A DNA stretch of 55,050 bases from contig CANRAS010000012.1 of assembly GCA_947628655.1 (NCBI GenBank), positions 1 to 55,050 on the forward strand. The letters run 5' to 3'. A model generated the notes under the pieces. The model did not search any database. It worked only from the letters and a program-made list of their open reading frames with translations, and was not told the origin of the DNA. The stretch comes from an uncultured Clostridia bacterium. GTDB lineage: Bacteria; Bacillota; Clostridia; Oscillospirales; Ruminococcaceae. Positions 2,386 to 54,926 of the stretch are shown here, piece by piece (the first letter of the stretch is position 1; every line of letters begins with the position of its first letter). A program made the position numbers and the translations under genes.

Positions 2386-2420
2386 TAGAGAATAGTTGTT
2401 AGTAGTTAGTAATTAGGTCA
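2386..2420 (+). repeat. Heptad array, TAGNNNN x5
   Basis: TAG trinucleotides occur at 2386, 2393, 2400, 2407 and 2414, exactly seven bases apart. This is one of the clearest (TAGNNNN)n arrays. A CCCCGCC/GGCGGGG palindrome follows near 2490. Confidence 0.85.
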
Positions 2421-2549: not shown

Positions 2550-2581
2550 ACTATTCACTGTATACTATGTACTGTAAACTA
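2550..2581 (-). repeat. Heptad array (AGTNNNN) that contains the GH3 stop codon
   Basis: On the plus strand ACT occurs at 2550, 2557, 2564, 2571 and 2578. Read on the minus strand this is AGTNNNN repeated five times, and its first unit overlaps the TAG stop codon of the GH3 lipoprotein gene (2579-2581). Confidence 0.85.
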
Positions 2582-5075: not shown

Positions 5076-5150
5076 AAGATTACCCCCCTTAGAAGTTAGA
5101 AGTAAGAAATAAGATGTAAGACTAAAGCGCGAACGTGGGCGCTTTACTTT

Positions 5151-8108: not shown

Positions 8109-8143
8109 TAGTTGCTAGAGAATAGTCATTAGTAGTTAGTTCT
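8109..8143 (+). repeat. Heptad array, TAGNNNN x5, abutting a stop codon
   Basis: TAG occurs at 8109, 8116, 8123, 8130 and 8137. The first unit begins at the base after the HTH gene's TGA. Confidence 0.9.
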
Positions 8144-8149
8144 GCGGGT

Positions 8150-8455
8150 CAATACGCCCCGCCGTAGGCGGGGAGAATACAAAAATCTATAACGCCGTTT
8201 CCCACGCCGTAGGCGGGGGGAATACAAAAATCTATAACGCCGTTTCCCCCGCCGTCGGCGGGGAGAATACAAAAAATCTATAACGCCGTTTCCCCCGCCG
8301 TCGGCGGGGAGAAAGCAAAAATCTCCAGCGCCGTTTTCCCCGCCGTAGGCGGGGAGAATACAAAAATCTATAACGCCGTTTCCCACGCCGTCGGCGGGGA
8401 GAAAGCAAAAATCTCCAGCGCCGTTTTCCCCGCCGTAGGCGGGGAAAACGGCTTA
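8150..8455. repeat. Tandem array of seven GC-rich hairpins
   Basis: Seven copies of a CCCCGCCGtaGGCGGGG-type palindrome (third base variable: gta or gtc) alternate with two kinds of short spacer, AATACAAAAATCTATAACGCCG and AAGCAAAAATCTCCAGCGCCG variants, giving a period of about 45-50 bases. Open frames across it, such as one spelling RRRGKRRYRFLYS repeatedly, are by-products of the repeat. No gene is visible between 8109 and the promoter at 8662. Confidence 0.85.
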
Positions 8456-12073: not shown

Positions 12074-12321
12074 TTAGATCACCTCCTCGGAATGTTGTCT
12101 GATTTCACTATCAAAATACATCATTGGGAGGTGCAGATTACTGCAAATAGTATAATAGAGAATAGTAGTTAGTAGTTAGTTTTAGTGCGGGTCATAACGT
12201 TGACAGGTAACGGGCAGGCTTTTAGAGGTTAGAGGTAAGAAGTAAGCGATTGTGGCATAGTAGCCGCAAACTGTTTCGCCGTATGCTGATTTTCCCGTTC
12301 AAACTTTTTTTATAAAATATA
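12074..12321. repeat. Intergenic repeats upstream of tRNA-Leu
   Basis: No gene visible. A TAGNNNN array has TAG at 12156, 12163, 12170 and 12177, and an (T/A)AGANGT array begins near 12225 (TTAGAGGTTAGAGGTAAGAA). I could not place a promoter for the lysis cassette here. Confidence 0.7.
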
Positions 12322-12506: not shown

Positions 12507-12800
12507 GACGCAATGGGCGTCTAGAAGCTAGAGATTAGAAGTAAGAAACTAGATTACTTGTAAGGCGAGAGGTTTTCGCTTTACATTTTTCTAGCCTCCA
12601 GCCTCTATTTCCTAGCCTCTGGACGGGTAATTCGGTTTTGCTCCACTCCGCTTACGCTCCGTTCCGCAAAACACCGCAAAGCATTGCGGGGTTGCTCTTC
12701 TCGGATAATGTTACCTATGCTCGCCGCGCTTTGCGCGGCATCGCTAAAGGTGCGGCTTTCGCCGCATTTGGTTGTTGATGTTAATCAACGCTTTAATCCG
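12507..12800 (+). repeat. Block found downstream of tRNA genes, copy 1
   Basis: After the terminator come GACGCAATGGGCG, heptad-type AAGTAAG tracts, and from about 12628 a well-conserved block: AATTCGGTTTTGCT..CACTCCGCTT, a CCGCAA..TTGCGG hairpin, GGGTTGCTCTTCT, GTTACCTATGCTCGCCGCGC and the hairpin GCCGCG-CTTTG-CGCGGC. The same blocks in the same order follow the tRNA cluster at 39611-39880. No gene is visible. Confidence 0.8.
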
Positions 12801-19911: not shown

Positions 19912-20019
19912 TTGACTTAAATACAATCTTTCTGTCCGCCGTAGGCGGACACTTAAACTAACTACTAACAACTATTCTCTAGCAACTGCGCCCTCTCTTA
20001 CCTCTTACTGCTTACCTCA
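19912..20019. repeat. Repeats upstream of the ATP synthase terminator
   Basis: A TGTCCGCC/GGCGGACA palindrome near 19935, an inverted TAGNNNN array with CTA at 19958, 19965, 19972 and 19979, and a CTTACCTCTTACTGCTTACC tract. No gene visible between 19335 and 20060. Confidence 0.75.
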
Positions 20020-29989: not shown

Positions 29990-30003
29990 AACGATCCCCT
30001 TTT

Positions 30004-30134
30004 AGAGGAAAGCAATTAGAAGTAAGATGTAAGCGGGCAATCCGCTGCGCGGATTGCCCTCAAACAGCAGGCTTTGCCTGCTGTTTGGGAAAATGCAAGA
30101 CCGTCACCGCTCACAAAAATTTGCGCTTTCCTCT
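30004..30134 (-). promoter_or_regulatory. Structured leader of the deacetylase gene
   Basis: The leader of about 180 bases contains two strong hairpins (GGGCAATCCGC/GCGGATTGCCC near 30033-30057 and an AAACAGCAGGC/GCCTGCTGTTT pair up to about 30088). They are enclosed by a perfect 10-bp long-range pairing, AGAGGAAAGC (30004-30013) with GCTTTCCTCT (30125-30134). The 30004 arm lies just upstream of the ribosome site, so regulation is possible, but the hairpins may simply be inserted repeats. Confidence 0.4.
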
Positions 30135-34352: not shown

Positions 34353-34382
34353 AAAGCCCCTTGCCGAAAAGCAGGGGGCTTT
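34353..34382 (-). terminator. Hairpin terminator downstream of groL
   Basis: AAAGCCCCTTGC (34353-34364) pairs with GCAGGGGGCTTT (34371-34382). It has T runs within the stem ends rather than a long tail, so termination may be partial. Confidence 0.55.
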
Positions 34383-34385
34383 GAA

Positions 34386-34416
34386 CTAAAAACTAACAAC
34401 TATTCTCTATTAACTA
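34386..34416 (-). repeat. Heptad array, TAGNNNN x5, abutting the groL stop codon
   Basis: On the plus strand CTA occurs at 34386, 34393, 34400, 34407 and 34414; the array ends at the base next to the groL TGA (34417-34419). Confidence 0.9.
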
Positions 34417-36824: not shown

Positions 36825-36859
36825 ACTGTGCACTCAGCACTCAACACTATTAACTGTTA
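36825..36859 (-). repeat. Heptad array AGTNNNN x5 encoding the end of MnmA
   Basis: ACT occurs at 36825, 36832, 36839, 36846 and 36853 on the plus strand. The mnmA stop (36834-36836) lies inside, so about seven C-terminal residues (TVNSVEC) are read from the repeat. Confidence 0.85.
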
Positions 36860-39610: not shown

Positions 39611-39880
39611 GGACGCAATGGGCGATTAGAAGTAAGATGTTAGAGGTAAGAAGTAAGACGAACTGCGGGCAATTGCGTTTTCGCCTTGTTTTTCAGTTTC
39701 TAACCGTTCAACGCCACGTTCTCTTACCTCTTACTTCTTAATTTCTAACCTCTGAACGGGCAATTCGGTTTTGCTTCACTCCGCTTGCGCTCCGCGAAAT
39801 ACCGCGGAACATTGCGGGGTTGCTCTTCTAGGGCGGTGTTACCTATGCTCGCCGCGCTTTGCGCGCATCGCTATATGCGC
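39611..39880 (+). repeat. Block found downstream of tRNA genes, copy 2
   Basis: It begins GACGCAATGGGCG as at 12507, includes a five-unit heptad array (TAG/AAG at 39627, 39634, 39641, 39648 and 39655), then from about 39758 the same AATTCGGTTTTGCTTCACTC, CCGC..GCGG, GGGTTGCTCTTCT and GTTACCTATGCTCGCCGCGC blocks. A CGCCCTCTCCCGCC/GGCGGGAGAGGGCG palindrome follows near 39885. No gene is visible between the terminator and 39976. Confidence 0.8.
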
Positions 39881-39947: not shown

Positions 39948-39979
39948 CTTATATCTTACCTCTAACCTCTTACCTCTTA
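39948..39979 (-). repeat. Heptad array abutting a zinc-ribbon gene stop codon
   Basis: On the plus strand CTT/CTA occurs at 39948, 39955, 39962, 39969 and 39976. On the minus strand this is ((T/A)AGANNT)n, and the TAA stop codon (39977-39979) is part of its first unit. Confidence 0.9.
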
Positions 39980-41466: not shown

Positions 41467-41467
41467 C

Positions 41468-41502
41468 AGTTTATAGTTAAGAGTGCTGAGTGCATAGTAA
41501 AA
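41468..41502 (+). repeat. Heptad array, AGTNNNN x5
   Basis: AGT occurs at 41468, 41475, 41482, 41489 and 41496, starting two bases after a stop codon. It is followed by CGCCCTCCCCCGCC/GGCGGGGGAGGGCG and GTTACCCCGCC/GGCGGGGTAAC palindromes. Confidence 0.9.
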
Positions 41503-41681
41503 GCGCCCTCCCCCGCCTACGGCGGGGGAGGGCGCGAGTTGTTTTAATTAGTTTACGGCGGGGAAAGGCTAATTCTATTTATCCGCAGTTACCCCGCCAA
41601 CGGCGGGGTAACTGCGTTATTTCGTGTGTCACCGTAACCGCCCCGCAGGTCTTACTTCTTACCTCTTACCTCTAACAGTTC

Positions 41682-41705: not shown

Positions 41706-41747
41706 TTGAGCCAAATAACTAGTAACTAATTACTATAAAACCAGCAA

Positions 41748-42342: not shown

Positions 42343-42440
42343 GTATTGGCGGAAATTTATTTTGCGCACGGCTTTATGCACGGTTTACGGTTACGGGTGA
42401 ACAGCAACAGCTTTCTCCCCGCCGACGGCGGGGAAAACTC

Positions 42441-42503
42441 TTACCTCTTACTTCTTACCTCTTACTTCTTACCTCTTACTTCTTACCTCTTATCTCTTAC
42501 ATC
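42441..42503 (-). repeat. Nine-unit heptad array containing the spoIIP stop codon
   Basis: Nine perfect 7-base units on the plus strand, alternating TTACCTC and TTACTTC with later TTATCTC and TTACATC. The spoIIP TAA (42483-42485) lies inside, so the last seven or so residues of SpoIIP (QDVRDKR) are encoded by the repeat. Confidence 0.95.
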
Positions 42504-43679
42504 TTGCCCCTTCCCGCTTAATACCTCTAAACTGTCTGCGATAATGTCCCCAAGCAATTCTCCCGTGTAAACCGCCTCTTCCAGGCTATTCGCCTGACTG
42601 CCCACTTCTATAAGTATATCCCCGCGAAACAGCGATTGATTGTAGTTTCTGTAATCGAACAGCACGGGACGCGCAAGCGTCGGGCAGGCGTTTTCCGCGC
42701 AGTTCTGTATAAGACACGCCAGCTTGAAATTCGTCATGTAATCGGGTATTTCCGTTTCGGGACTGTCACAGCCCGTTATTATCATAAACTGCGCGGCGGT
42801 TTTTCCGTTTATTTCGGCAATCGGCGCGACAGCCGAGCCGTCGGCGTTCTGTATTCCGTCGCGGTGGAGGTCTATTGCGATTTTGATTTGGGGATACTCC
42901 TCCAGATTTTCTAAAAGCGTATCCGCGGAGCGGTAATACGCGCCCGTAAACATCGGGCTGTCGTGTACCGTGCAGTCGTGAACGCAGGAAATCCCGCGTT
43001 TTGCCAGCGCCTCACATAACGCGTCGCCGACCGCCGTCATATTGCGCGCGCTGTCCGTTGTGCTTATCGGGTAATCGGGGTCGTATGTATCGCCAAACGG
43101 CATAAAACTCTCGGTCGTGTGGGTGTGATAAATCAGCACCGCAGGTTCGTTTAGGTCAACTTCGCCCAAATCGGGAAGTTCTTCGGCGGAGTGCGCTAAG
43201 ACATCGTTCTCCTCGTCCGTGTAGTTGCGTATCTGCGCACCGCTTGAAAGCGTAATGATATTAGGGTCATCGAAATATCCGAAGTTAAATCGGCTGATAA
43301 TCCCGCTTTTGTTTGTGAATTGTGAGTAATCCGTGTCATCTGTATTGTCGGCGCGGTTTTTTACGATAATATTCCCGCGCGCCGTTTCAACAGGCGGTTC
43401 GTTCGGAGTTTCGGCAGCGGAACTCTCCGCGCCCGCCTGCGAAGTGCTGTGCGGAACAGCCGAAACGCTTGAACTGCTCTGCGCCGTGCTTGTTACGCTC
43501 CCCGCCGAACTCTGCGCCGAAGTATCGTGTTCGGGTTGTCCGCTCACGTCATTGAAATCACCGCCCGCGCCCCAAACCGCCGCGCCGCGCAGAAAACTCC
43601 CCGCGCCCGTGCTTGAGCCTGTCAGAAAAACGCACACCAGTGCGATTGCGAAAATAATACTTGCTTTCAGCTTTCCCAT
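42483..43679 (-). CDS. spoIIP: Stage II sporulation protein P (peptidoglycan hydrolase)
   Basis: A 398-residue membrane-anchored amidase/endopeptidase that, with SpoIID and SpoIIM, drives engulfment of the forespore. It has an N-terminal helix (about 7-25), a Ser/Thr/Ala-rich linker, and the SpoIIP domain with the zinc-site motifs YHTHTTESF (about 187), IAIDLHRD and the C-terminal LIEVGSQANSLEEA. Finding it implies a spore former. A sigma-E-like promoter lies 22 bases upstream. The extreme C-terminus is encoded by a heptad array. Confidence 0.94.
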   Translation of the reverse strand: MGKLKASIIFAIALVCVFLTGSSTGAGSFLRGAAVWGAGGDFNDVSGQPEHDTSAQSSAGSVTSTAQSSSSVSAVPHSTSQAGAESSAAETPNEPPVETARGNIIVKNRADNTDDTDYSQFTNKSGIISRFNFGYFDDPNIITLSSGAQIRNYTDEENDVLAHSAEELPDLGEVDLNEPAVLIYHTHTTESFMPFGDTYDPDYPISTTDSARNMTAVGDALCEALAKRGISCVHDCTVHDSPMFTGAYYRSADTLLENLEEYPQIKIAIDLHRDGIQNADGSAVAPIAEINGKTAAQFMIITGCDSPETEIPDYMTNFKLACLIQNCAENACPTLARPVLFDYRNYNQSLFRGDILIEVGSQANSLEEAVYTGELLGDIIADSLEVLSGKGQDVRDKR

Positions 43680-43741: not shown

Positions 43742-43765
43742 TAGAGAATAGTTGTTAGTAGTTAG
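43742..43765 (+). repeat. Heptad array, TAGNNNN x4
   Basis: TAG occurs at 43742, 43749, 43756 and 43763 in exact 7-base phase. Confidence 0.85.
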
Positions 43766-44308: not shown

Positions 44309-44797
44309 ATGGAAAAATTTGACAACAACGAACTTATAAAATCGCTTGTATTTCCGATTATATGCGTATTGTGGGGGCTTGCACGCGTTGTACCGGGGGT
44401 GTTCACGGGCGCTGATTTTGCGGATCTTTTTAACTCTCCGGCTGTCGTTGATACCGTTATCTGTTTGTCGGCGGTATTGGCAGGCGGCGTTGTGTCGGCG
44501 ATTTTAACGATGACAAAGCGCGTTCACACGGAACAATTTTTGCGCGAACGCCTTTTGACCGTTCTCGCAGTCGCGGCGGCGGGCGCTATTATTCAAATAA
44601 TTCCGTTCGGCAATATCTACTCGCTGGGTATGGCGATAGCAAACGGTTATGCGGTGTTCGTCAGGATAAAAAAGATTTCGTCAACCCCGCTTTTCCCGAT
44701 AGAACGCGCCGTCCTGATAATGTCCGAACCGATTTTCTATTGGGAGATTTTCTTCATTTGGTCGTTAATTCTTGAGGGCATAAGCAAGTACATATAG
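44309..44797 (+). CDS. Membrane protein of unknown function (162 aa)
   Basis: An integral membrane protein with four predicted helices (about 11-30, 44-66, 83-103, 141-157) and short loops. I recognise no motif. TAGGAGTTGAC precedes the ATG, and it has its own promoter and a downstream terminator at 44949, so it is monocistronic. Its TAG stop codon is exactly the first unit of a five-unit TAGNNNN array. Confidence 0.72.
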   Translation: MEKFDNNELIKSLVFPIICVLWGLARVVPGVFTGADFADLFNSPAVVDTVICLSAVLAGGVVSAILTMTKRVHTEQFLRERLLTVLAVAAAGAIIQIIPFGNIYSLGMAIANGYAVFVRIKKISSTPLFPIERAVLIMSEPIFYWEIFFIWSLILEGISKYI

Positions 44798-44829
44798 TTG
44801 TTAGAGAATAGTTGTTAGTAATTAGTTGT
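44795..44829 (+). repeat. Heptad array, TAGNNNN x5, first unit is a stop codon
   Basis: TAG occurs at 44795, 44802, 44809, 44816 and 44823. The first is the stop codon of the preceding gene. A second array follows with TAG at 44884, 44891, 44898 and 44905, separated by a TTCGCCCCCGACGGGGGCGAA palindrome. Confidence 0.93.
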
Positions 44830-44948
44830 TTAAGCGCCTTAGAGGTTAGCGGTTGTTCGCCCCCGACGGGGGCGAAAAGCAGTTAGAGAATAGTAATTAG
44901 TAGCTAGTTGTTTACGCGCCGTAAAGTTTAGAGGTTAATAGTCAGTAA

Positions 44949-44977
44949 TACCCGCCTGCTAAGGCGGGTATTTTTTT
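44949..44977 (+). terminator. Intrinsic terminator
   Basis: TACCCGCC (44949-44956) pairs with GGCGGGTA (44963-44970), followed by seven T. It is a strong rho-independent terminator for the 162-aa gene. Nothing else is visible up to the promoter at 45048. Confidence 0.92.
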
Positions 44978-45047
44978 CGGGAACATCAGCATAATAACTC
45001 AAAGAGAGCGTAAACCGAATACGTTCTTTCATCCTCTTTCACGGTAC

Positions 45048-45076
45048 TTGACAATTCCGTGCAATTGTGCTATAAT
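45048..45076 (+). promoter_or_regulatory. Consensus promoter of the DUF1858-trmK-Nif3 operon
   Basis: TTGACA, 17 bases, TATAAT, 50 bases before the ATG. Confidence 0.9.
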
Positions 45077-45126
45077 AAATAAGTATAGGGTTTTGAAAAA
45101 GCCCGATAAAGAAAGGAAGTTTTATT

Positions 45127-45333
45127 ATGAAAGTAACTGCTGATACTATTATAGGCGATATTCTCGATTTTAACGGCGAGGCTGCCGCTCCGATTTTCCT
45201 TGCAATGGGTATGCATTGCTTAGGCTGTCCGTCGGCGCGCGGCGAGAGCGTCGGACAGGCTTGCTCGGTTCACGGCGTTGACGTAAACGACATCGTAAAC
45301 AAGCTGAACGCCGCGCTCGGCAATAAGAATTGA
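45127..45333 (+). CDS. DUF1858 domain protein
   Basis: A 68-residue single-domain DUF1858 protein (MKVTADTIIGDILDFNGEAAAPIFLAMGMHCLGCPSARGESVGQAC...). The CLGCP motif with a further Cys suggests a redox or metal role; similar domains occur at the N-terminus of iron-sulfur repair (ScdA/RIC) proteins. It overlaps trmK by four bases (stop TGA inside TTGA). Confidence 0.9.
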   Translation: MKVTADTIIGDILDFNGEAAAPIFLAMGMHCLGCPSARGESVGQACSVHGVDVNDIVNKLNAALGNKN

Positions 45334-46016
45334 GCGGTTCTCCCGAACTTTCAAAACCGCAGTCAATTACGCTTGATGAAAGATTATCGGCGGCGGCGGG
45401 GTTCTGCCGTAATGGGAAAATCGCCGTTGACGTCGGCTGCGACCATGCACAGCTTGCCTGTTTTTTGGCGAAAAACATCTCAAAGTCGGTTATCGCGTCC
45501 GACGTGCGGGACGGTCCGCTCTGTTCGGCGCGAAAGACCGTTGAGAAACAGGGCGTTTCTAATGTCAGAGTAGTGAAGTCGGACGGGCTTTGCGAAATAG
45601 ATTTTGCCGATGATGTTATAATCTGCGGAATGGGCGGGGAGCTTATCGCGCAGATAATCGGAGGCTGTCGGTTTCTGAACGGGGACACGAGGTTCATTCT
45701 TCAGCCGATGACAAAGGCTGATTACCTGCGCCGATTTCTTTGCGGTCAAGGCTTTGAGATTGTCGAGGAGAAAGGCGCCGAGGACGGCGGTCATGTGTAC
45801 ACGGTAATGCTCGTGAAGTTTACGGGCAAGCGTTTCCGTATAGACGAGATTTTCGCGCTTGTCGGCAAGAACACCGACCCGCGTTACCTGAAGATGACCG
45901 CGCATAAACTTTTAAAAAACGCGGCGGGAATGGAAAAATCGGCGGATTTGACAGATAAAGCCGTGAAACTGCGCGAACTTGCGGAAAAAATTTTGACAAA
46001 GGCAGAAGAAATATGA
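45330..46016 (+). CDS. trmK: tRNA (adenine-22-N1)-methyltransferase TrmK
   Basis: A 228-residue class I SAM methyltransferase that makes m1A22 in tRNA. The SAM site is AVDVGCDHAQLACFLA (about 32-47), followed by SDVRDGPLCSARKTVEKQGV and the family-specific ICGMGGELIAQIIGG. The TTG start overlaps the DUF1858 stop; no better in-frame start exists before the conserved LDERLSAAAGF. It is followed by the Nif3-like gene with an ATGA overlap, the same pairing as yqfN-yqfO in Bacillus subtilis. Confidence 0.93.
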   Translation: MSGSPELSKPQSITLDERLSAAAGFCRNGKIAVDVGCDHAQLACFLAKNISKSVIASDVRDGPLCSARKTVEKQGVSNVRVVKSDGLCEIDFADDVIICGMGGELIAQIIGGCRFLNGDTRFILQPMTKADYLRRFLCGQGFEIVEEKGAEDGGHVYTVMLVKFTGKRFRIDEIFALVGKNTDPRYLKMTAHKLLKNAAGMEKSADLTDKAVKLRELAEKILTKAEEI

Positions 46017-46780
46017 CAGTAAAAGATGTATTGGATTATTTAAATACAATCGCCCCATTGAACACGGCAGAAGATTTTGACAACGTTGGTTTGCTGACAG
46101 GCGATGAAACCCGCGAAGTCACGGGCGTTTGCTGTTGTGTTGACATTACTCACGCGGTAATAAAAGAGGCGTGCGGCAAGGGCGCGAACCTTATAATATC
46201 ACATCATCCCGTGATTTTCGGGGGCTTAAAAAAAATAGAACCGTGGCACCCCGTATCGGCGCTTATTCAAAACGGCATTTGCGCGATTGCAATGCACACG
46301 AATTTTGACATTGCGGAAAACGGCGTAAACGCGGCTTTGGTGGAACTGTTGGAGTTCGAGAGTCTGGGCGCGCTTGACAGGGGTTTCGGCGCGGTGTGCG
46401 AACCTCCGCTCCCGTTCGTGCCTAAGGGTTTAGCCGAGCATTGCAAGGCGAAACTTGACCTGCAATGCGTAAAATACAGCGCACACGGCGCGGAGAAAAA
46501 ACAGCTTTCCCGCATAGCGGTCTGCTGCGGCGGGGGAATAGACGGCGCTGTTATGCAGGCTGCGAGAGAACAGCATATTGACGCGGTTATTTCGGGCGAT
46601 ATAAAGCACAATTACTGGATAGAGGCTGAAAACTGCGGGCTTACGCTGATAGACGCGGGGCATTTCGGAACAGAAAAATCGGCGGCGCACGCGTTAGCCA
46701 AGATAGTTACATTACAGTTTCCTCAAGTACCCGTATTTAGTGCGGAGAGCGAATGCGACCCCTGCGCGTATAGTTGCTAG
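46013..46780 (+). CDS. Nif3-like dinuclear-metal protein (YqfO family)
   Basis: A 255-residue member of the NIF3/YqfO family, hexameric proteins with a two-metal site, often listed as GTP cyclohydrolase I type 2. The metal-binding segments are visible: ISHHPVIFGG near 63, MHTNFDIAENGVNAAL near 99, and the C-terminal DAGHFGTEKSAAHAL. Function is unsettled in the family. Its last two residues and stop codon (S-C-TAG) come from a TAGNNNN array. Confidence 0.92.
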   Translation: MTVKDVLDYLNTIAPLNTAEDFDNVGLLTGDETREVTGVCCCVDITHAVIKEACGKGANLIISHHPVIFGGLKKIEPWHPVSALIQNGICAIAMHTNFDIAENGVNAALVELLEFESLGALDRGFGAVCEPPLPFVPKGLAEHCKAKLDLQCVKYSAHGAEKKQLSRIAVCCGGGIDGAVMQAAREQHIDAVISGDIKHNYWIEAENCGLTLIDAGHFGTEKSAAHALAKIVTLQFPQVPVFSAESECDPCAYSC

Positions 46781-46803
46781 AGATTAGTAAGCAGTAGTTA
46801 GTT
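46771..46803 (+). repeat. Heptad array, TAGNNNN x5, containing the Nif3 stop codon
   Basis: TAG occurs at 46771, 46778, 46785 and 46799, with CAG at 46792. The second TAG is the stop codon. A TTTGTCCGCC-TTC-GGCGGACAAA hairpin follows directly. Confidence 0.88.
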
Positions 46804-46844
46804 TTTTGTCCGCCTTCGGCGGACAAAAACGGGAGAATATAAAG

Positions 46845-48617
46845 ATGTCATTGGACGGTGCTTTTCTGCATTGCGTAAAGCGGGAACTTAACACTCTAAT
46901 CGGCGCTAGGGTGGATAAAATTTTTCAGCCCTCTAAAGAGGAAATCGTGGTTAGTCTGCGAATGTTAGGGGGCGCGGACAAGGGCGCGAAAAAACTCGCG
47001 TTTTCCGCGGGCGGCACGTCGGCGCGGGTACATTTGACGGAGCAGGAGTTTGAAAACCCGTCCGCACCTCCGCTGTTCTGCACACTTCTGCGAAAGCATT
47101 TAAACGGCGGACGGCTGTCCGCGATACGGCAGGACGGCTTGGAACGCGTACTGTATTTCGACTTCGAGTGCGTAAACGAGATAGGCGACAGGGTACTTAA
47201 CACGCTCGCTGTCGAGATTTTGGGACGGTATTCCAACATCATTTTACTGCGCGGAGGTCGTGTGGTTGACAGCATAAAGCGCATAACCGACGGCGGGGAC
47301 GAGAATTTCACGGGTCGGCGTATCCTGCCGAACATACCGTATGAAACCCCGCCGCGCATACCGAGGCTTTGCCTTACGGACGCTGAAACTTCTGACGTGC
47401 TTTCTGCGGTTTTCGGCGGGGAGTACGCCGAACAGCGCCTTGCAAAGGCTCTGCAGTCCGTTCTGGAGGGAATTGCGCCGATATTCGCGCGGGAGTGCGC
47501 GTTTTACTCGGCGGGCGATGTTGACGCGGTTGTCGGGGAATTGGGCGAGAGCGAAAGAACGCGCGTTCTCGAATTTCTCGAAACGGCGAAATCCGCTCTG
47601 CAAGGCGCGGGAAGATATTGTATTCTGACCGATGAAACGGGGAAGTATAAGGACTTTTCGTTTATAGAAATTCACCAATACGGCGGTTTGTATAAAACCG
47701 TGGAATTTCAAAGCCCGTGCGCTCTGCTCGATGAATTTTACGGCGCGTCGGCGGTGCGCGAACGCGCAAAGCAGAAGTCGCGGGAACTTTACAGAACCGT
47801 AAATTCCGCGTATGAACGCGCTCTGCGCCGCGTCGAACTCCAAAAGAAAGAACTTTCCGACTGCGCAAAGCGCGAGGAACTCCGCATTGCGGGAGATTTA
47901 ATAAACGCGAATATCTACCGCCTTGAAAAGGGAATGACGAAGTGTATTCTTGATGATTTCTACAGCGGAGGACAGCGGGAAATCGCGCTTGACGCGCGCC
48001 TTACTCCCGCGCAGAACGCGCAGAAATACTACCGCGAATACCGAAAACTCGACACCGCCGAACGCAAACTAACGGTGCTGATAAAAGAGGGAAACGGCGA
48101 AACCGCGTATCTTGACAGCGTTCTCGACAGCATTGAACGCGCCCGCACCGACAGCGAGCTTGCCGAGATACGCGCGGAACTTACCGAGCAGGGTTATCTT
48201 CGCGGAGCGCGAACCGCCGTAAGACCGAAAAAACTCGCCGAACCGCTTAAATACTTGTCAAGCGACGGTTTTGAGATATTAGTCGGCAGAAACAACAAGC
48301 AAAACGATTTATTGACCCTCAAAACGGCAAACGCGCAGGACATCTGGCTTCACGTCAAGGATATTGCGGGTTCGCACGTTATAATCCGCACAAACGGCGC
48401 TGAACCGACGGAGAAAACGATTTTCGAGGCGGGTATGCTTGCGGTATACCATTCAAAAGCGCGGACGTCGCAGAACGTACCCGTAGACTTCACGGCGGTA
48501 AAGTTCGTTAAAAAGCCCGCGGGCGCAAAGCCGGGAATGGTTATTTTTACGAACAATAAAACGCTGTTCGTTACTCCCGACGAGAGCGTTATTGAAAAAC
48601 TGCGCGGAAAGGACTAG
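46845..48617 (+). CDS. rqcH: NFACT protein RqcH (ribosome quality control)
   Basis: A 590-residue NFACT family protein. Bacterial RqcH binds obstructed 50S subunits and adds C-terminal alanine tails. The N domain starts MSLDGAFLHCVKRELN, a coiled-coil region spans about 290-430, and the NFACT-R domain contains DIWLHVKDIAGSHVIIR near 500. The Asp-Arg pair needed for tailing in Bacillus appears as E100-R101 (DGLERVLYF), a conservative change. The start at 46845 follows GGGAGA; a longer frame runs through a repeat and is rejected. Older annotations call this fibronectin-binding protein. Confidence 0.93.
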   Translation: MSLDGAFLHCVKRELNTLIGARVDKIFQPSKEEIVVSLRMLGGADKGAKKLAFSAGGTSARVHLTEQEFENPSAPPLFCTLLRKHLNGGRLSAIRQDGLERVLYFDFECVNEIGDRVLNTLAVEILGRYSNIILLRGGRVVDSIKRITDGGDENFTGRRILPNIPYETPPRIPRLCLTDAETSDVLSAVFGGEYAEQRLAKALQSVLEGIAPIFARECAFYSAGDVDAVVGELGESERTRVLEFLETAKSALQGAGRYCILTDETGKYKDFSFIEIHQYGGLYKTVEFQSPCALLDEFYGASAVRERAKQKSRELYRTVNSAYERALRRVELQKKELSDCAKREELRIAGDLINANIYRLEKGMTKCILDDFYSGGQREIALDARLTPAQNAQKYYREYRKLDTAERKLTVLIKEGNGETAYLDSVLDSIERARTDSELAEIRAELTEQGYLRGARTAVRPKKLAEPLKYLSSDGFEILVGRNNKQNDLLTLKTANAQDIWLHVKDIAGSHVIIRTNGAEPTEKTIFEAGMLAVYHSKARTSQNVPVDFTAVKFVKKPAGAKPGMVIFTNNKTLFVTPDESVIEKLRGKD

Positions 48618-48619
48618 CT

Positions 48620-48850
48620 GTGTTTGGGTTTAAGAAAAAAGAGCCTGTTTTCATAGAAAACGACTTAGGGAAATTTAAACTTGTCGAAACGAAGTCCATA
48701 ATTTACGCTGACGGCAGGAAACAACCGCATATTCACCGTTATTACGGCGGATACGCCGTGGATGTCACGGCGCGCTGTGTCAGAAACGCGAATATTGCTC
48801 TCAAAGCGAGAGTTATCAATACAATCAAGGAAAGAGGACAAAATAAATGA
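48620..48850 (+). CDS. Small conserved-looking protein between rqcH and valS
   Basis: A 76-residue soluble protein (MFGFKKKEPVFIENDLGKFKLVETKSIIYADGRKQPHIHRYYGGYAV...). It starts with GTG two bases after the rqcH stop, with GGAAAGGA upstream, and its TGA overlaps the valS ATG. I do not recognise a family. The tight coupling on both sides supports a real gene, perhaps linked to translation like its neighbours; that is inference. Confidence 0.75.
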   Translation: MFGFKKKEPVFIENDLGKFKLVETKSIIYADGRKQPHIHRYYGGYAVDVTARCVRNANIALKARVINTIKERGQNK

Positions 48851-51480
48851 AAAAAGAACTCGATAAAACATACTCTCCGAAAGAGTTTGAGGACAGGCTT
48901 TATAAATATTGGGAGGAGAGCGGTTTTTTTAAAGCCGAGCGCGACCCCGAAAAAAAGCCGTTCACAATAGTAATGCCCCCGCCGAACATCACGGGGCAGC
49001 TGCATATGGGACACGCGCTTGACTGCACATTGCAGGACATAATTATCCGTTTTAAGAGAATGGAGGGTTATTCCGCATTGTGGCTTCCGGGAACCGACCA
49101 CGCCGCGCTTGCGACCGAGGCGAAAATCGTGTCCGCGATGAAAGAAGAGGGTATTACAAAATACGACTTAGGGCGCGACGGCTTTATGAAACGCGCATGG
49201 GAATGGAACGACAAATACGGCGGTACGATAAAGAAACAACAGCGCAAAATGGGTACTTCCTGCGATTGGAGCCGTGACCGTTTCACAATGGACGAGGGCT
49301 GTTCAAAAGCCGTCGGGAAAGTGTTCACGGATCTGTACCGCAAGGGTCTTATTTACCGCGGAGAGCGCATAATCAACTGGTGTCCGAACTGCAAGACTTC
49401 CATTTCCGATATTGAAACCGAATATGAAGAACAGGACGGCTTTTTCTGGCACATAAACTATCCTTTAGCGGACGGGAGCGGTTTTGTGGAAATCGCGACG
49501 ACGCGTCCCGAAACTCTTTTGGGCGACAGCGCCGTTGCCGTAAATCCAAAGGACGAACGCTATAAAACAATAGTCGGCAAAATGCTGAAACTCCCGCTTA
49601 CAGACAGGGAGATACCCGTTGTCGCCGATGAATATGTCGATATGGAATTCGGCACGGGCTGTGTAAAGATAACCCCCGCGCACGACCCGAACGACTTTGA
49701 AGTAGGAAAGCGCCACGATTTGCCCGTTATCCATATGATGAACGACGACGCGACGATTATGGACGGCATAGGCGGAAAGTACGCGGGAATGGACAGGTAC
49801 GAGGCGCGAAAGGCGATTGTTGCGGATTTGGAAACGGCGGGACTTCTCGTGAAAACCGAACCGCATAAGCACAATGTCGGCACTTGTCAGCGGTGCGGAA
49901 CTACCGTAGAACCTACCGCGTCACTTCAATGGTTCGTCAAGATGAAAGACCTTGCAAAGCCCGCTATAGACGTTGTAAAGAGCGGAGAACTGCGCTATAT
50001 CCCGAAACGCTTTGAAAACAGCTATCTTTTCTGGATGGAGAATATCCGCGACTGGTGCATTTCCCGCCAAATTTGGTGGGGACACCGCATACCCGCGTTC
50101 TATTGCCAAAACAAGGAATGCGGTCACACGGAAATTACCCTTGATAACATCGACAAATGCCCGAAGTGCGATGCGCCCGTAAAGCAGGACGAGGACACGC
50201 TCGACACATGGTTTTCATCGGCATTGTGGCCTTTCTCAACGTTGGGCTGGCCCGACGAAACCGAGGATTACAAATACTTCTATCCGACGAATACGCTCGT
50301 TACGGGGTACGATATAATCACGTTCTGGGTGTCGAGAATGATTTTTTCGGGGCTGGAACACACAGGGCAAAAGCCGTTCACCGATGTGCTTATTCACGGA
50401 CTTGTCCGCGACGAGCAGGGGCGCAAGATGTCCAAATCCTTAGGAAACGGCGTTGACCCGCTTGAGATAATCGACAAATACGGCGCGGACGCTTTGCGTC
50501 TGACGCTCGTCACGGGAAACGCTCCGGGCAATGATATGCGCTGGTCGGAAACAAAGGTCACAAACTCCCGCAACTTCATAAACAAGCTGTGGAACGCCTC
50601 GCGCTATATCCTGATGAATTTGCCCGACGATTTGGAAAAGCCCGTTCTCCCCGATACTCTGACGATAGAAGATAAGTGGGTGCTGTCGCTTTTCAACGAT
50701 ATGATAAAGAACGTTACAGCGAACCTCAACGCTTACGAACTCGGCGTTGCCGTGCAGAACGTTTACGACTTCACATGGGATATATTCTGCGACTGGTATA
50801 TTGAACTCACAAAACCGCGTATATCCGCAGGCGGAGATACCGCCCGCGCCGCGCAGAATGTCCTCGTGTTCGTAATGCGCGGGATTTTAAAGACGCTCCA
50901 CCCGTTTGTGCCGTTCGTGACGGAGGAGATTTGGCAGTCGCTCCCTCACGGCGAGGAAGAGAGCATTATGATGACACGGTGGTGCGAATACGACGAGAAA
51001 CTAAGTTTCCCGCAGGAAAAAGAGGATTTCTCGCGCGTTGTCGACAGCATACGCGGGGTTCGCGTTCAGCGGAATGAAATGAACGTCCCGCCGTCCAAGA
51101 AAGTCACGATGATAGTTGAAACGCGCTTTACCGCGCTTTACGGGAGCGCCGAGCCGTTCTTTGAAAAACTCGCGGGCGCGGGGGAATTTACCGTATGCGA
51201 AAAAGCCGAAAGCACGGACGGTATGATAACCGTCGTAACGGATTCGGCGCGCGTGTTTATTCCGATGGGCGAACTCGTTGACAAGGAAAAGGAAACAGCC
51301 CGCCTTGAAAAGGAGCGCAAATCCGCGCAGAAAGACATAGATTTTCTGTCCGCTAAACTAAACAATCAAGGCTTTTTGTCAAAAGCCCCCGCAAATCAGA
51401 TAGAAAACGAACGCGCAAAACTCGCGAAAGCGGAGGAGAAGATGAAGAAAATCCTCGCGTCGCTTGAAAGCCTGAAATAA
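48847..51480 (+). CDS. valS: Valyl-tRNA synthetase
   Basis: An 877-residue class I synthetase, normal length for a Firmicute ValRS. The HIGH-type motif is PPPNITGQLHMGHA at 44-57, the editing domain has ATTRPETLLGDSAVAVNP, two zinc-type CxxC clusters occur (NWCPNCKT and FYCQNKEC...CPKCDAP), KMSKS is near residue 526, and the C-terminal about 65 residues form the tRNA-binding coiled coil. There is no T-box leader in front; it is expressed with rqcH and the 76-residue gene. Confidence 0.98.
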   Translation: MKKELDKTYSPKEFEDRLYKYWEESGFFKAERDPEKKPFTIVMPPPNITGQLHMGHALDCTLQDIIIRFKRMEGYSALWLPGTDHAALATEAKIVSAMKEEGITKYDLGRDGFMKRAWEWNDKYGGTIKKQQRKMGTSCDWSRDRFTMDEGCSKAVGKVFTDLYRKGLIYRGERIINWCPNCKTSISDIETEYEEQDGFFWHINYPLADGSGFVEIATTRPETLLGDSAVAVNPKDERYKTIVGKMLKLPLTDREIPVVADEYVDMEFGTGCVKITPAHDPNDFEVGKRHDLPVIHMMNDDATIMDGIGGKYAGMDRYEARKAIVADLETAGLLVKTEPHKHNVGTCQRCGTTVEPTASLQWFVKMKDLAKPAIDVVKSGELRYIPKRFENSYLFWMENIRDWCISRQIWWGHRIPAFYCQNKECGHTEITLDNIDKCPKCDAPVKQDEDTLDTWFSSALWPFSTLGWPDETEDYKYFYPTNTLVTGYDIITFWVSRMIFSGLEHTGQKPFTDVLIHGLVRDEQGRKMSKSLGNGVDPLEIIDKYGADALRLTLVTGNAPGNDMRWSETKVTNSRNFINKLWNASRYILMNLPDDLEKPVLPDTLTIEDKWVLSLFNDMIKNVTANLNAYELGVAVQNVYDFTWDIFCDWYIELTKPRISAGGDTARAAQNVLVFVMRGILKTLHPFVPFVTEEIWQSLPHGEEESIMMTRWCEYDEKLSFPQEKEDFSRVVDSIRGVRVQRNEMNVPPSKKVTMIVETRFTALYGSAEPFFEKLAGAGEFTVCEKAESTDGMITVVTDSARVFIPMGELVDKEKETARLEKERKSAQKDIDFLSAKLNNQGFLSKAPANQIENERAKLAKAEEKMKKILASLESLK

Positions 51481-51539
51481 GCGTTATTTGAATACAACAG
51501 GAAAACTCGAAAAAGACATTATCAATAGGGGAGTATACT

Positions 51540-52442
51540 ATGGCTGAACTTACGTTAATTGTACTCGCGGCGGGAATGGGAAGCCGTTTCGGCGACAGGA
51601 TAAAACAGCTTGAACCTTTAGGACCGAGCGGTGAACTGCTTATCGACTACTCTGTTCACGACGCGCTCCAAAACGGCTTTTCGCGCGTGGTGTTCATCAT
51701 TCGGCGGGATATAGAGCAGATGTTTAAAAGCACGATAGGCGCGAGAGCGGAAAGGCTTGTGAAAACCGAATACGTTTTCCAATCTCCCGACAATATTCCC
51801 GTGCGGAGCGGGGATTTCCCAACGCGGTCAAAGCCGTGGGGAACGGCGCAGGCGCTCTGGTGCTGTAAGGACGTAATTGACGGCGCGTTCGCGGTAATCA
51901 ATGCCGATGATTTTTACGGCGCCGGGGCTTTTAAGCAGCTCGGCGATTTTCTGAAAAATCCCGTTTGTTCCGCGTGTTCCGTGGATTTTCTGCTGAAGAA
52001 TACGCTGTCCGAAAACGGCACGGTAAACCGCGGGATCTGCCGTACAAATTCCGAGCATTTCTTAACGCTTGTAGAGGAAACCAAAGAGATAAAGCGCGGC
52101 GCGGACGGCGTTATCCGCGGGAAATTCAAAAGCGCGGAGCGCGTTTTAAACGACCTTGACACAACGTCAATGAGTATGTGGGGATTTAAAGCGGAGTTTA
52201 TGCCGATTTTGGAGCGAAATCTGTGCGATTTCTACAACGGTTTGCCTGCGGACGACGCGAAGTCCGAACTTACTATAGCCGAATGTGTAAGCCGTGAAAT
52301 AACGGAAAACGGCTTTAAATGCCTTGACATTCCGACCGACAGCAGGTGGTTCGGCATAACGTACGAAAGCGAAGTTGAAAACGCTCGGCAGACGCTTTTA
52401 AACTACACGGAACAGGGCGTTTACAAATCCCCCCTGTTTTAA
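51540..52442 (+). CDS. Nucleotidyltransferase (sugar-phosphate type)
   Basis: A 300-residue NTP-transferase fold protein. The N-terminal LIVLAAGMGSRFGDRIKQLEPLG is the nucleotide-binding loop (G-x-G-S/T-R-x-x-P-like) and AVINADDFYGAGAF is the metal-binding Asp region. Such enzymes activate sugar phosphates or related metabolites for surface polymers. The product here is unknown. GGGGAG precedes the ATG; putP follows 28 bases after the stop codon. Confidence 0.88.
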   Translation: MAELTLIVLAAGMGSRFGDRIKQLEPLGPSGELLIDYSVHDALQNGFSRVVFIIRRDIEQMFKSTIGARAERLVKTEYVFQSPDNIPVRSGDFPTRSKPWGTAQALWCCKDVIDGAFAVINADDFYGAGAFKQLGDFLKNPVCSACSVDFLLKNTLSENGTVNRGICRTNSEHFLTLVEETKEIKRGADGVIRGKFKSAERVLNDLDTTSMSMWGFKAEFMPILERNLCDFYNGLPADDAKSELTIAECVSREITENGFKCLDIPTDSRWFGITYESEVENARQTLLNYTEQGVYKSPLF

Positions 52443-52470
52443 TAGGTAATTTTATGAAAAGGAGAACAGA

Positions 52471-54030
52471 ATGAAGTTCAATGTTTACACGATCATTGCG
52501 TTCGTCTTGTATGCGGTGATTATTCTGGCAATCGGTATTTGGGGCTTTTTGAAAGCCAAAGGCACAAAGGATTATTTCTTGGGCGGAAGACAGCTCGGCA
52601 GTTGGACGACCGCGATTTCCGCGCAGGCGTCCGATATGAGCGGATGGCTCCTTATGGGTCTGCCGGGTTCGGTTTTAGTCGGCGGTATGACCCAAAGCTG
52701 GGTAGCAATAGGGCTGTTTGTCGGCACTTATCTAAACTGGCTTATCGTCGCAAAGCGTCTGCGCAAGATGAGTTACGCGGCGGGCGACGCTATCACCATT
52801 CCCGAATATCTTCAAAAGCGTTTCTTTACGAAATCCCCCGTCGTGCGCCTCGTATGCGCGGTGATAATCTTCTTTTTCTTCCTTATATACACCGCGTCTG
52901 CGTTTAACGGCGGTGCAAAGCTGTTCGGCTTTGTTTTCGGCACGAATTACATACAGTCGCTTACTATCGGCGCGCTTGTAATAATTTCCTATACGTTTTT
53001 AGGCGGATTTCTGGCGGTCTGCTGGACTGACCTTATTCAAGGTATGCTGATGTTCGCGGCGCTCGTTGTTGTGCCTATCGTGGTAGTCGCAAGAGTACCC
53101 GACCTCGGCGCGGCGTTTCAGAACGCGCTGTCCGAAGATACGCTGATTTGCGGAAGTCAGATAACGGACTATTACTGGAGTTTTGTACGCGCTCCCGACG
53201 GCTCTTTGGCGGTAACGACAATCGTTTCGGGGCTTGCGTGGGGACTTGGATATTTCGGTATGCCCCATATCTTAGTGCGCTTTATGGCGATAAAGAACAG
53301 CGATATGATAAAGAAATCCCGCCTTATCGCGACAATTTGGGTGTTCGTGACGCTCGCGGCGGCGGTGCTTGTCGGCGGTCTTGGAATGATATTCCTCCAC
53401 GACCCGCAGAACGCCGAACTTCTCGCGGAATTTAACGCATTGGGCGAAAGCGAGAAGATATTTATGTTCTTATCGAGTTCGCTTTTGCCGTCGCTTATAG
53501 TCGGGGTTATCCTGTCGGCGATACTCGCCGCGATAATGAGTACTGCGGATTCTCAGCTTCTCGTAACGTCCTCGGCGGTGACGAACGATATGTTCAAGAT
53601 TTTCAAGAAAGACGCGTCGGAAAAGACGCTGATGTGGATTTCCCGCGGTACGGTTCTCGTAGTGGCGGTTATCGCGTACCTAATAGCGCTTGACGAAAAC
53701 AGCACGGTTATGGGTTTGGTATCGTACGCGTGGGCAGGTTTAGGCGCGGCGTTCGGACCCGTTATGCTGTTGTCGCTTTTCTGGAAACGAATGACGATGC
53801 CGGGCGCGGTCGCGGGAATTATCACGGGCGGCGCGGCGGTCATAATCTGGGAGAGCGTCGAAGTTCTCAAGAACACGGGCGTTTATTCGCTCCTGCCCGC
53901 GTTCGCTCTTGCGTTGGTCGCGATTATCGTTGTATCTTTAGCGACAAAGGTTGACAGAGCGCAGGTCGATGAACTTTTTGAGAAAGCAAAGGCGCACGAC
54001 CTTGACCAAGTAGAAAACGCGGAGAAGTAA
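52471..54030 (+). CDS. putP: Sodium/proline symporter
   Basis: A 519-residue sodium:solute symporter with about 13 helices. The N-terminus (FNVYTIIAFVLYAVIILAIGIWGF), GGRQLGSWTTAISAQASDMSGWLLMGLPG, and SAILAAIMSTADSQLLVTSSA (Na+ site) match PutP. It would import proline with Na+, which fits the Na+-type ATP synthase. AAAAGGAGAA is the ribosome site. The stop codon lies in a short AAGTAAG-type tract. Confidence 0.95.
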   Translation: MKFNVYTIIAFVLYAVIILAIGIWGFLKAKGTKDYFLGGRQLGSWTTAISAQASDMSGWLLMGLPGSVLVGGMTQSWVAIGLFVGTYLNWLIVAKRLRKMSYAAGDAITIPEYLQKRFFTKSPVVRLVCAVIIFFFFLIYTASAFNGGAKLFGFVFGTNYIQSLTIGALVIISYTFLGGFLAVCWTDLIQGMLMFAALVVVPIVVVARVPDLGAAFQNALSEDTLICGSQITDYYWSFVRAPDGSLAVTTIVSGLAWGLGYFGMPHILVRFMAIKNSDMIKKSRLIATIWVFVTLAAAVLVGGLGMIFLHDPQNAELLAEFNALGESEKIFMFLSSSLLPSLIVGVILSAILAAIMSTADSQLLVTSSAVTNDMFKIFKKDASEKTLMWISRGTVLVVAVIAYLIALDENSTVMGLVSYAWAGLGAAFGPVMLLSLFWKRMTMPGAVAGIITGGAAVIIWESVEVLKNTGVYSLLPAFALALVAIIVVSLATKVDRAQVDELFEKAKAHDLDQVENAEK

Positions 54031-54043
54031 GCGATAAGATGTT

Positions 54044-54226
54044 AAAGTTGCGCCACCCGCTTAACAAATTTCTCTATCCACACTAGCTTTTGTGGCGCAA
54101 CTTTCAAGTTGCGCCACCCGCTTAACAAATTTCTCTATCCACACTAGCTTTTGTGGCGCAACTTTCAAGTTGCGCCGCCCGCTTAAAATATTCCTCTATC
54201 CGCACGCGCTTATGTGGCGCAACTTT
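54044..54226 (+). repeat. Triple tandem AAAGTTGCGCC inverted-repeat element
   Basis: Three units (54044-54104, 54106-54165, 54167-54226; period 61). Each is bounded by AAGTTGCGCC(A/G)C and GTGGCGCAACTTT. Units 1 and 2 are nearly identical; unit 3 differs inside and is almost the same as the single copy at 8515-8575. The remainder of 54031-54308 has no gene or clear promoter. Confidence 0.93.
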
Positions 54227-54308
54227 CGATGTAAGACGTAAGACCTGCTGGTCATTGCGCTGACACTCTCGGAATATGTAACGCAGATTTACGGAAAGGA
54301 ATTGCATT

Positions 54309-54890
54309 ATGGAAAAGACAAAACAGTATACTTGTGTAAACTGCGGAGCGGTGATAACGTCCGAAATATGCCCGTACTGCGGGAGCGTTACGAACGTAAA
54401 GACCGACGAGGCGTATATGGAATACCCCGAAATAAACTGTAAAGAGGCGACGGTGGGGTTCTTTCAAGTTGCGTTCCCGCTGATATTCGCCGTGATGTTT
54501 ACGATAGGCGGGGTAATGGCGATGAACATAGCAATCAAAGGCTTAGCAGGAGAGGACACGCCGATGGTCGTGTTGATGTGCATACCGTTCCTGCTGATAG
54601 GCATAGCCGCGGCGGTCGTAGTCTTAAAGAAAGTTTACAGATACATAGTTCTGAAACGTAAGGGGAAACACATCACGGGAACATTTTACGGCTATTTCGA
54701 CGACAATATTCGGATAAACGGACGCCCCGCGCAGGTGGCAAAAATCCTGGTGGATACTCCGCAAGGCAAACGTTTTATAATGTACCAACTCGGCAGTACC
54801 GAAAGGAATATCGCCGTTAATCAGGAAGTGTGCCTTTTGGTTTACAAAGACATCTTTATGATTGAGAAAAATCCGGGAGTGGAATGGTAG
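54309..54890 (+). CDS. Zinc-ribbon membrane protein (193 aa)
   Basis: An N-terminal zinc ribbon (YTCVNCGAVITSEICPYCGSV, about 8-28), two membrane helices (about 50-75 and 88-112), and a C-terminal strand-rich cytoplasmic domain with short basic segments (KRKGKHITGTFYGYFDDNIRING). Its function is unknown; it recalls a family of small zinc-ribbon envelope proteins also present at 40-42 kb. An AAAGGAATTGC site precedes the ATG. A five-unit heptad array starts two bases after its TAG stop codon. Confidence 0.8.
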   Translation: MEKTKQYTCVNCGAVITSEICPYCGSVTNVKTDEAYMEYPEINCKEATVGFFQVAFPLIFAVMFTIGGVMAMNIAIKGLAGEDTPMVVLMCIPFLLIGIAAAVVVLKKVYRYIVLKRKGKHITGTFYGYFDDNIRINGRPAQVAKILVDTPQGKRFIMYQLGSTERNIAVNQEVCLLVYKDIFMIEKNPGVEW

Positions 54891-54891
54891 G

Positions 54892-54926
54892 TAGAGGTTA
54901 GAAGTAAGATGTAAGAGGTAAGACCT
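54892..54926 (+). repeat. Heptad array, (T/A)AGANGT x5
   Basis: TAG at 54892 and 54899, then AAG at 54906, 54913 and 54920, all seven bases apart, beginning one base after the stop codon. It is followed by the GTTGACACACTAGGGAATACA motif also seen near 2460 and a GCCCCGCC palindrome remnant at the window end. Confidence 0.92.

Follow-up and report, generated by a model that had tools for sequence, protein, structure and literature searches.

Short tandemly repeated repetitive (STRR) sequences of heterocystous cyanobacteria are degenerate 7-base tandem units situated between genes. REPINs are linked to RAYT transposases, and repetitive extragenic palindromic (REP) sequences are said to be high-copy palindromic extragenic repeats, with GTAG tagging one superfamily. 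Here, we describe intergenic heptad arrays in a 55,050-nucleotide stretch from an uncultured gut Clostridia bacterium of the Ruminococcaceae (GCA_947628655.1, contig CANRAS010000012.1, positions 1 to 55,050; the whole stretch is called the window), many of which begin on or directly at the stop codon of a gene. The arrays resemble STRRs in being degenerate 7-base tandem intergenic units, and differ from REP sequences and REPINs in their heptad-array ends and in the lack of a Y1 transposase in the genome.

According to PMC2229807, the Correia/NEMIS, RUP and ERIC/IRU miniature inverted-repeat transposable elements (MITEs) are short, dispersed, largely intergenic and foldable repeats with inverted ends; stops occur in every frame of the 155-bp Correia repeat and of RUP, and some MITEs are fused to or encode parts of proteins. 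The elements of the source genome (G000; 2.09 Mb in 34 contigs) are alike in their short, dispersed, inverted-end, largely intergenic and foldable form with all-frame stops. However, their ends are degenerate heptad arrays with inward three-frame closure, their bodies are modular, and they directly adjoin stops, -35 boxes and tRNA ends; a PF01797 search and a target-duplication test gave neither a parent nor a clear duplication. TAACTGA heptamer repeats in Beggiatoaceae, Cyanobacteria and Bacteroidetes are described in PMC4679880 as intergenic, abundant, stop-containing and patchy; in the Orange Guaymas Maribeggiatoa genome, most of them lie just ahead of start codons. The same source, after Mrazek 2007, names heptads as the commonest long-unit repeat class in most genomes. 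As presented there, the TAACTGA repeats are one exact heptamer, whereas the G000 arrays consist of degenerate TAG-framed units, form facing pairs and are docked on stops. PMC2229807 and PMC4679880 already document, one by one, MITEs with all-frame stops, protein parts encoded by MITEs, and heptad repeats; within the open literature, most subscription papers being outside that scope, we found no description of inward heptad stop caps at gene ends or of a stop-docked heptad family in Clostridia. The G000 arrays are probably the terminal modules of a dispersed, modular, MITE-like inverted-repeat family that fills much of the intergenic DNA, its docking set by selection at functional borders.

Heptad arrays docked on stop codons

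The array sample comprised the window and 20 stretches of 20 kb (455,050 bases, 22% of the genome), in which a self-trained, home-made codon-model finder, not a standard program, called 384 genes, with 77% of the sample coding. Arrays were counted from at least four TAG/AAG units at spacing 7. The window contains 17 such arrays (12 on the plus and 5 on the minus strand), with none at spacings of 5, 6, 8, 10 or 11, and among periods 3 to 13 its self-similarity is highest for period 7 at every threshold from 17 to 23 of 28. Across the genome, (TAGNNNN)x3TAG matches 357 times against a single match of the reversed control, in agreement with the genome-wide 7-bp phasing expected by an earlier sequence-only reading of the window.

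The sample holds 120 arrays, a total that asks only for a gene on the left (an earlier tally requiring genes on both sides gave 111), and none lies inside a predicted gene. A same-sense gene stands ahead of 73 arrays, 64 of which are the first in line; of these, 49 are docked, with the array start from -40 to +8 relative to the end of the same-sense stop. Between -20 and +8, 47 arrays were observed, compared with a mean of 5.65 and a maximum of 13 in 500 trials of random placement, and 25 of the 73 same-sense arrays start at -3 to 0, where the same null gives a mean of 0.8 and a maximum of 5. With heptads of any NAG type (at least four units), 64 of 374 gene ends are docked, no array in reverse orientation stands at a stop in the sample, and none of 360 start sides is docked within -40 to +8. 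The TAGNNNN/AAGNNNN units are therefore not placed as the TAACTGA repeats are, nor are arrays equally common inside genes or on start sides.

The stop lies in or overlaps the array in 38 of the 49 docked cases (TAG in the array 27, TAA 10, TGA 1), and just before it in the remaining 11. Over all sample genes, stop usage is TAA 175, TGA 109 and TAG 93, so that 27 of 93 TAG stops lie in an array. The array supplies one or more codons in 17 of the 49 docked genes. C-terminal tails among the docked genes include -KK six times, -SS three times and -SC twice, as against 17, 6 and 4 over all 377 genes.

Read inward, 104 of the 120 arrays shut all three frames, as the sequence-only reading had reasoned from the 7-base period, compared with 18 read outward and 8 length-matched random intergenic pieces; in 83 of the 120, closure is reached after 17 or 23 bases. 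Of 16 docked arrays, 16 retain the stop in unit 3 and 14 in unit 4; for 17 promoter-side arrays both figures are 15, and for 20 others both are 19. This count excludes arrays that lead directly into a hairpin module. In these small numbers, there is no sign that gene-end arrays keep their stops better than those elsewhere, and frame closure is a property of the inward strand of the element end, not of gene ends.

Three unit types recur: A-type arrays with the core AGTWGCTAGAGAATAGTTGTTAGTAGTTAG, B-type arrays as runs of AGAGGTA/AGAAGTA with 4 to 19 units, and C-type arrays as runs like ACAGTTTATAGTGC. In the window, the four series of TAGs exactly 7 apart reported earlier, at 2386, 8109, 34386 (inverted) and 44795, are all real. 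Eleven of the 12 stops named with them have at least three AG heptads nearby, ten of those arrays starting at -37 to +1 and that of 41748 at +12; the kinase stop at 10497 has no array of at least three units, its degenerate match being visible by eye only. On the plus strand, an A-type array (8109..8139) lies immediately behind the TGA of the HTH gene, and a C-type array (41467..41497) immediately behind the TAA of a zinc-ribbon gene. The first TAG of the A-type array 44795..44825 is the stop of the 162-aa gene, with a second A-type array (44877..44907) behind a GC hairpin; 46771..46801 covers the end of the Nif3 gene, and the B-type array 54892..54922 begins one base behind the TAG stop of the gene at 54309. 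On the minus strand, the first TAG of a C-type AG-heptad array (2551..2581) is the stop of the GH3 gene, an A-type array (34379..34416) lies immediately behind the groL TGA, a C-type array (36826..36856) covers the last codons and stop of MnmA, and a B-type array (39948..39978) covers the TAA stop of a zinc-ribbon gene. The stop at 41748 is followed after 12 bp by a three-unit array (41719..41735) and after 73 bp by a B-type array (41651..41674), while a twelve-unit B-type array (42440..42519) extends over about 12 last codons and the stop of SpoIIP. Pfam supports the GH3, HTH, histidine kinase, GroEL (Cpn60), MnmA, SpoIIP and Nif3 names; among the genes called zinc-ribbon, those of 39977 and 41466 are above the cut-off, that of 41748 is below it only, and that of 54890 has no Pfam match at E 1e-5. 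Protein names here are Pfam-checked, except that AMP-synthetase, traG, EAL and GH25 were named by eye from sequence.

Arrays as the outer ends of dispersed repeats

The seed AGAGAATAG alone is followed by a TAG in the next unit in 50 of 64 cases and in one further unit in 43 of 64, and the four bases between vary. The A-type unit order is common to many sites and several species, and arrays lead into shared modules, including GC hairpins and GATTAGATTGTCTTTAAGTCAA. Repeats within the sample (at least 45 bp at 78% identity or more) occupy 32% of intergenic and 0.5% of coding bases. They cover 95% of the bases in arrays and 68-88% of those just inside, against 21-38% at distances of 25-60 bp beyond the outer edge; the peak in the arrays and the fall over 25 bp beyond them identify the arrays as the outer ends of dispersed repeats. 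Hence, the array is the end of a larger modular repeat and not a self-standing unit, although tandem degenerate 7-mers between genes, as in STRRs and simple heptad repeats, are what it contains.

Neighbouring arrays within one intergenic region form 34 pairs in the sample, of which 14 face each other (><), 11 and 8 run the same way (<< and >>) and one points apart (<>), the excess of facing over diverging pairs being that of terminal inverted repeats in a MITE. Facing pairs also make up 5 of 5 in G026 and 2 of 2 in G157, with 4 in G129. One full element (locus L035, 8128-8370) folds as a long branched hairpin with its two arrays as the basal stem (z = -10.3), and the window segment 44795-44985, with two same-facing arrays, folds at z = -3.5. 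Pairing between arms is no better within an element than between elements (n = 13, 5 and 6), and this comparison shows no sign of compensatory maintenance of the stem.

Further repeats were noticed in the window. Right behind the docked array at 8109, a 45-bp unit containing a GC hairpin (CCCCGCCGTAGGCGGGG) is repeated in tandem about six times (8157-8445); a 61-bp unit that starts with AAGTTGCGCCACC is present three times in tandem in the intergenic segment 54045-54227. A 25-bp tandem unit, AGCGTTTTCCGCGAAGCGGATAATG, occurs both at 1-75 and at 797-847, and an 18-bp repeat of about ten copies lies within the GH3 gene (3639-3820). The intergenic segment 43845-44230 has genome copies elsewhere that are 81-92% identical and represents a further dispersed module without a long array. 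In addition, the loop between two facing arrays at L253:2194-2284 looks by eye like the 3' part of a tRNA; ARAGORN finds no tRNA in L253.

At least one TAG-pattern match was found in 19 of 41 genomes of the genus, 20 of 118 genera sampled from the family and 24 of 147 genomes sampled from the order (G000 included each time), lone matches possibly being due to chance because the reversed control also yields some. At least ten matches occur in 13 of 41 for the genus, 9 of 119 for the family and 9 of 147 for the order, with the highest count of all genomes searched in G000. The distribution in genus and order is patchy, and the array units vary by lineage. In G075, of the same family, the reversed control GATNNNN x4 was found 127 and 113 times, which indicates that another heptad frame exists in the family. 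An exact 24-mer core is present in 24 contig stretches titled as uncultured Clostridia, Oscillospiraceae or Ruminococcaceae metagenome-assembled genomes (MAGs); it has no exact match among viral contigs, and a phage origin was rejected. Counting only arrays with at least two TAGs, first arrays are docked in 13 of 14 cases in G026, 3 of 3 in G157 and 1 of 1 in G129, four of the six samples counted in this way being tiny, and G026 and the MAG loci having been picked for holding arrays.

Gene ends in relatives and other functional borders

Gene ends were compared with six relatives (G011, G024, G026, G028, G039 and G040), mostly at 65-74% DNA identity where compared. The same end codon is used in 6 of 6 relatives each for accA, gpmI, ftsZ and the ABC-transporter/FtsX gene, and in 5 of 6 for fumA (interrupted in G026). 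In all five genes, the first array TAG of G000 stands at the end codon of the relatives, which mostly have no array there. Elsewhere, the array contributes residues: six are added to the RNase R-like gene, others form the SpoIIP C-terminus, and the Nif3 protein ends in Ser-Cys in G000, G026, G028 and G037 and in Val or Ile in most relatives. Apparently independent docking is seen at the penicillin-binding-protein gene of G026 (the TAG of a B-type array) and at a G024 paralogue of the 443-aa gene, and in degenerate form behind gpmI in G024 and G026. The variable C-termini of phosphorylase, EAL, GH25, AMP-synthetase and recO carry little information on exact position, and the traG-like gene was compared in two relatives.

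At accA, the sequence found directly behind the stop in relatives (+0 or +1) starts at +132 or +133 in G000 in all five usable relatives (the contig of the sixth ends there), with a TAA immediately ahead of the resumed native sequence. Filled and empty sites of a discrete insertion, as known for MITEs, are thereby found, and capture of the stop by deletion is rejected for accA, the native DNA being intact again downstream. In the relatives, a short inverted repeat with a T-run (GGTAAA..TTACC) lies a few bases behind the native accA stop, and the stop may therefore have been the one place where insertion did no harm. Insertion at the stop is also suggested by alignment for the penicillin-binding-protein gene, in which the post-stop sequence of G011 starts at +165 in G000 and repeat coverage spans the insert. 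In fumA, the sequence from +11 of one relative resumes at +335. Among 14 genes compared in this way, accA and the penicillin-binding-protein gene were positive, and the other 12 gave no clean answer among the listed results.

Stops are not the sole border that the arrays abut. In spacers of at least 120 bp, repeat coverage is 45% of bases at 0 to +5 behind 168 stops and 1% ahead of 191 starts, and some 100 bp upstream of starts it has climbed to about 35%. Among 35 first arrays on the start side, 4 directly adjoin a -35 box (CTA|CTTGAC). Eleven are situated 13-45 bp from a start, and the five closest of these have their ends 1-5 bp away from a Shine-Dalgarno-like site. At tRNA borders, where the cases are few and were noticed rather than systematically counted, arrays come to 1-3 bp from 5' ends of tRNAs: an array begins 1 bp from the 5' end of tRNA-Gln (G026, L239), an element lies 3 bp from tRNA-Gly in L070, and degenerate units reach the CCA end of tRNA-Phe (same spacer in L052 and L072). 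Arrays therefore halt at functional borders of several kinds, not at stops alone.

Among the remaining window arrays, a B-type array (30003..30033, plus) comes to 1 bp from the Shine-Dalgarno-like site that belongs to the minus-strand gene starting at 29989. Also on the plus strand, a heptad array (12522..12552) has tRNA-Leu 57 bp before it and a B-type array (39627..39657) has tRNA-Gly 59 bp before it, while a B-type array of AGAAGTA units (5090..5127) and an A-type array (43742..43765) lie 68 bp and 62 bp past a start codon, respectively. An A-type array on the minus strand (19958..19981) has a same-sense stop 79 bp before it. The A-type array 2386..2416 (TAGAGAATAGTTGTTAGTAGTTAG core) is not docked and, like the A-type array 12156..12179 and the B-type array 12223..12246, is on the plus strand. 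Covariance models of Rfam found only four tRNAs in the window at the gathering threshold and no other RNA family.

Origin of the docking

On the most likely account, the arrays are the ends of a MITE-like family sorted by selection, and their inward heptads (TAGNNNN and relatives) usually stop translation into the element in each frame within 17 to 23 bases. The elements, presumably spread by transposition, would survive only where harmless: from the stop codon to the next 3' signal, upstream of a Shine-Dalgarno site or a -35 box, or between tRNA genes. Such tolerated sites would be thin slivers between functional borders, and the stop cap would widen the sliver to the stop and the last codons. 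Because the tip gives a stop in any frame, an insertion may hit the native stop or fall slightly upstream of it; the array would then serve as the stop of the gene, sometimes coding its last few residues, and the protein would be unharmed. Selection would, in that case, be the cause of the docking.

Several observations weigh against this account. Docking is weaker in the named MAG loci (6 of 17) and absent in the tiny samples of G084 (0 of 1) and G103 (0 of 2); same-way pairs make up 19 of the 34 adjacent pairs, diverging pairs are 3 of 7 in G129, many regions have a single array only, and the stretches between arms in G026 look unique by eye. At accA, the insert counts as a repeat within the sample for its first half only, and the penicillin-binding-protein result comes from 1 of 5 aligned relatives, the first 30 to 80 post-stop bases being unaligned in the other four. 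With 25 of the 64 first-in-line arrays at -3 to 0, exact docking is tighter than tolerance by itself would produce, barring short 3' spacers. No Y1/RAYT domain (PF01797) exists in G000, other transposase families being outside this search, and PF01797 is missing in 12 of 13 genus genomes with at least ten pattern matches (G000 among them), with one copy in G035. Likewise, no clear target-site duplication is seen among 28 cases (4-mers 11 against 8.5 expected, 5-mers 6 against 2.0, longer 0). Across the genus, PF01797 is present in 9 of 43 genomes, of which only G035 (14 matches) and G006 (3) match the TAG pattern, G159 lying outside the pattern scan; a REP/RAYT origin is rejected on its absence from 12 of the 13 array-rich genomes, G000 included.

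Site-directed insertion would mean that some recombinase, or a process tied to replication or transcripts, favours stops or the terminator hairpins that closely follow them, with selection doing no more than retaining the outcome. It would account for the 25 of 73 arrays at -3 to 0, far over uniform placement, for the accA insert exactly at the stop, and for the independent docking in the G026 penicillin-binding-protein gene and the G024 paralogue. However, the same type of end is also found against -35 boxes, Shine-Dalgarno sites and tRNA ends, so that no common sequence target is visible, and the base ahead of the AG of the element is T in 33 of 59 cases (a few being chance matches inside genes), which also excludes a TA target model. 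We regard such targeting as rather unlikely. The earlier proposal that elements insert at stop codons stands for accA in five relatives, and suggestively for the penicillin-binding-protein gene in one.

Retention of arrays at gene ends as fail-safe stops or as mRNA 3'-end signals, the other proposal of the sequence-only reading, draws on the sharp docking, the closure of all frames and the long stem of the L035 element with arrays as its basal helix. The equal stop retention in docked, promoter-side and other arrays speaks against fail-safe selection, as do the non-stop borders and the lack of arrays in most compared orthologues, and the pairing of same-element arms no better than different-element arms weighs against either function. 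Furthermore, Ho and Hurst 2019 (PMC6764699) report no compelling evidence for additional-stop selection in eubacteria. This explanation is improbable, and its fail-safe form is not supported. Simple local slippage of heptads, as in STRRs or long simple sequence repeats, without mobility, could produce B-type arrays of 4 to 19 units in keeping with the general commonness of heptads, but is very improbable given the A-type unit order common to many sites and several species, the continuation of A-type arrays into shared hairpin modules and the rarity of outward-pointing arrays.

Under the MITE-like account, heptad repeats are tied to dispersed inverted-repeat elements, and repeats have been turned into the stop codons and C-termini of many genes, including 27 of 93 TAG stops and 17 docked genes with array-coded residues. 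Caution is needed, as TAG stops and some -KK, -SS and -SC tails in such genomes may be repeat-derived. The closure of all frames offers a testable reason for the 7-base unit. Tentatively, and as a possibility we rather doubt, these may be a class of mobile intergenic elements with ends that evolution has shaped into universal stop caps, with heptads coprime to the codon and the TAG frame above all conserved. Such an element could enter any gene at its final codon or within that codon, take over the stop and alter the C-terminus without damage. If true, universal stop caps would be a self-taming strategy that opens gene ends, tRNA spacers and promoter edges throughout a genome to colonisation.

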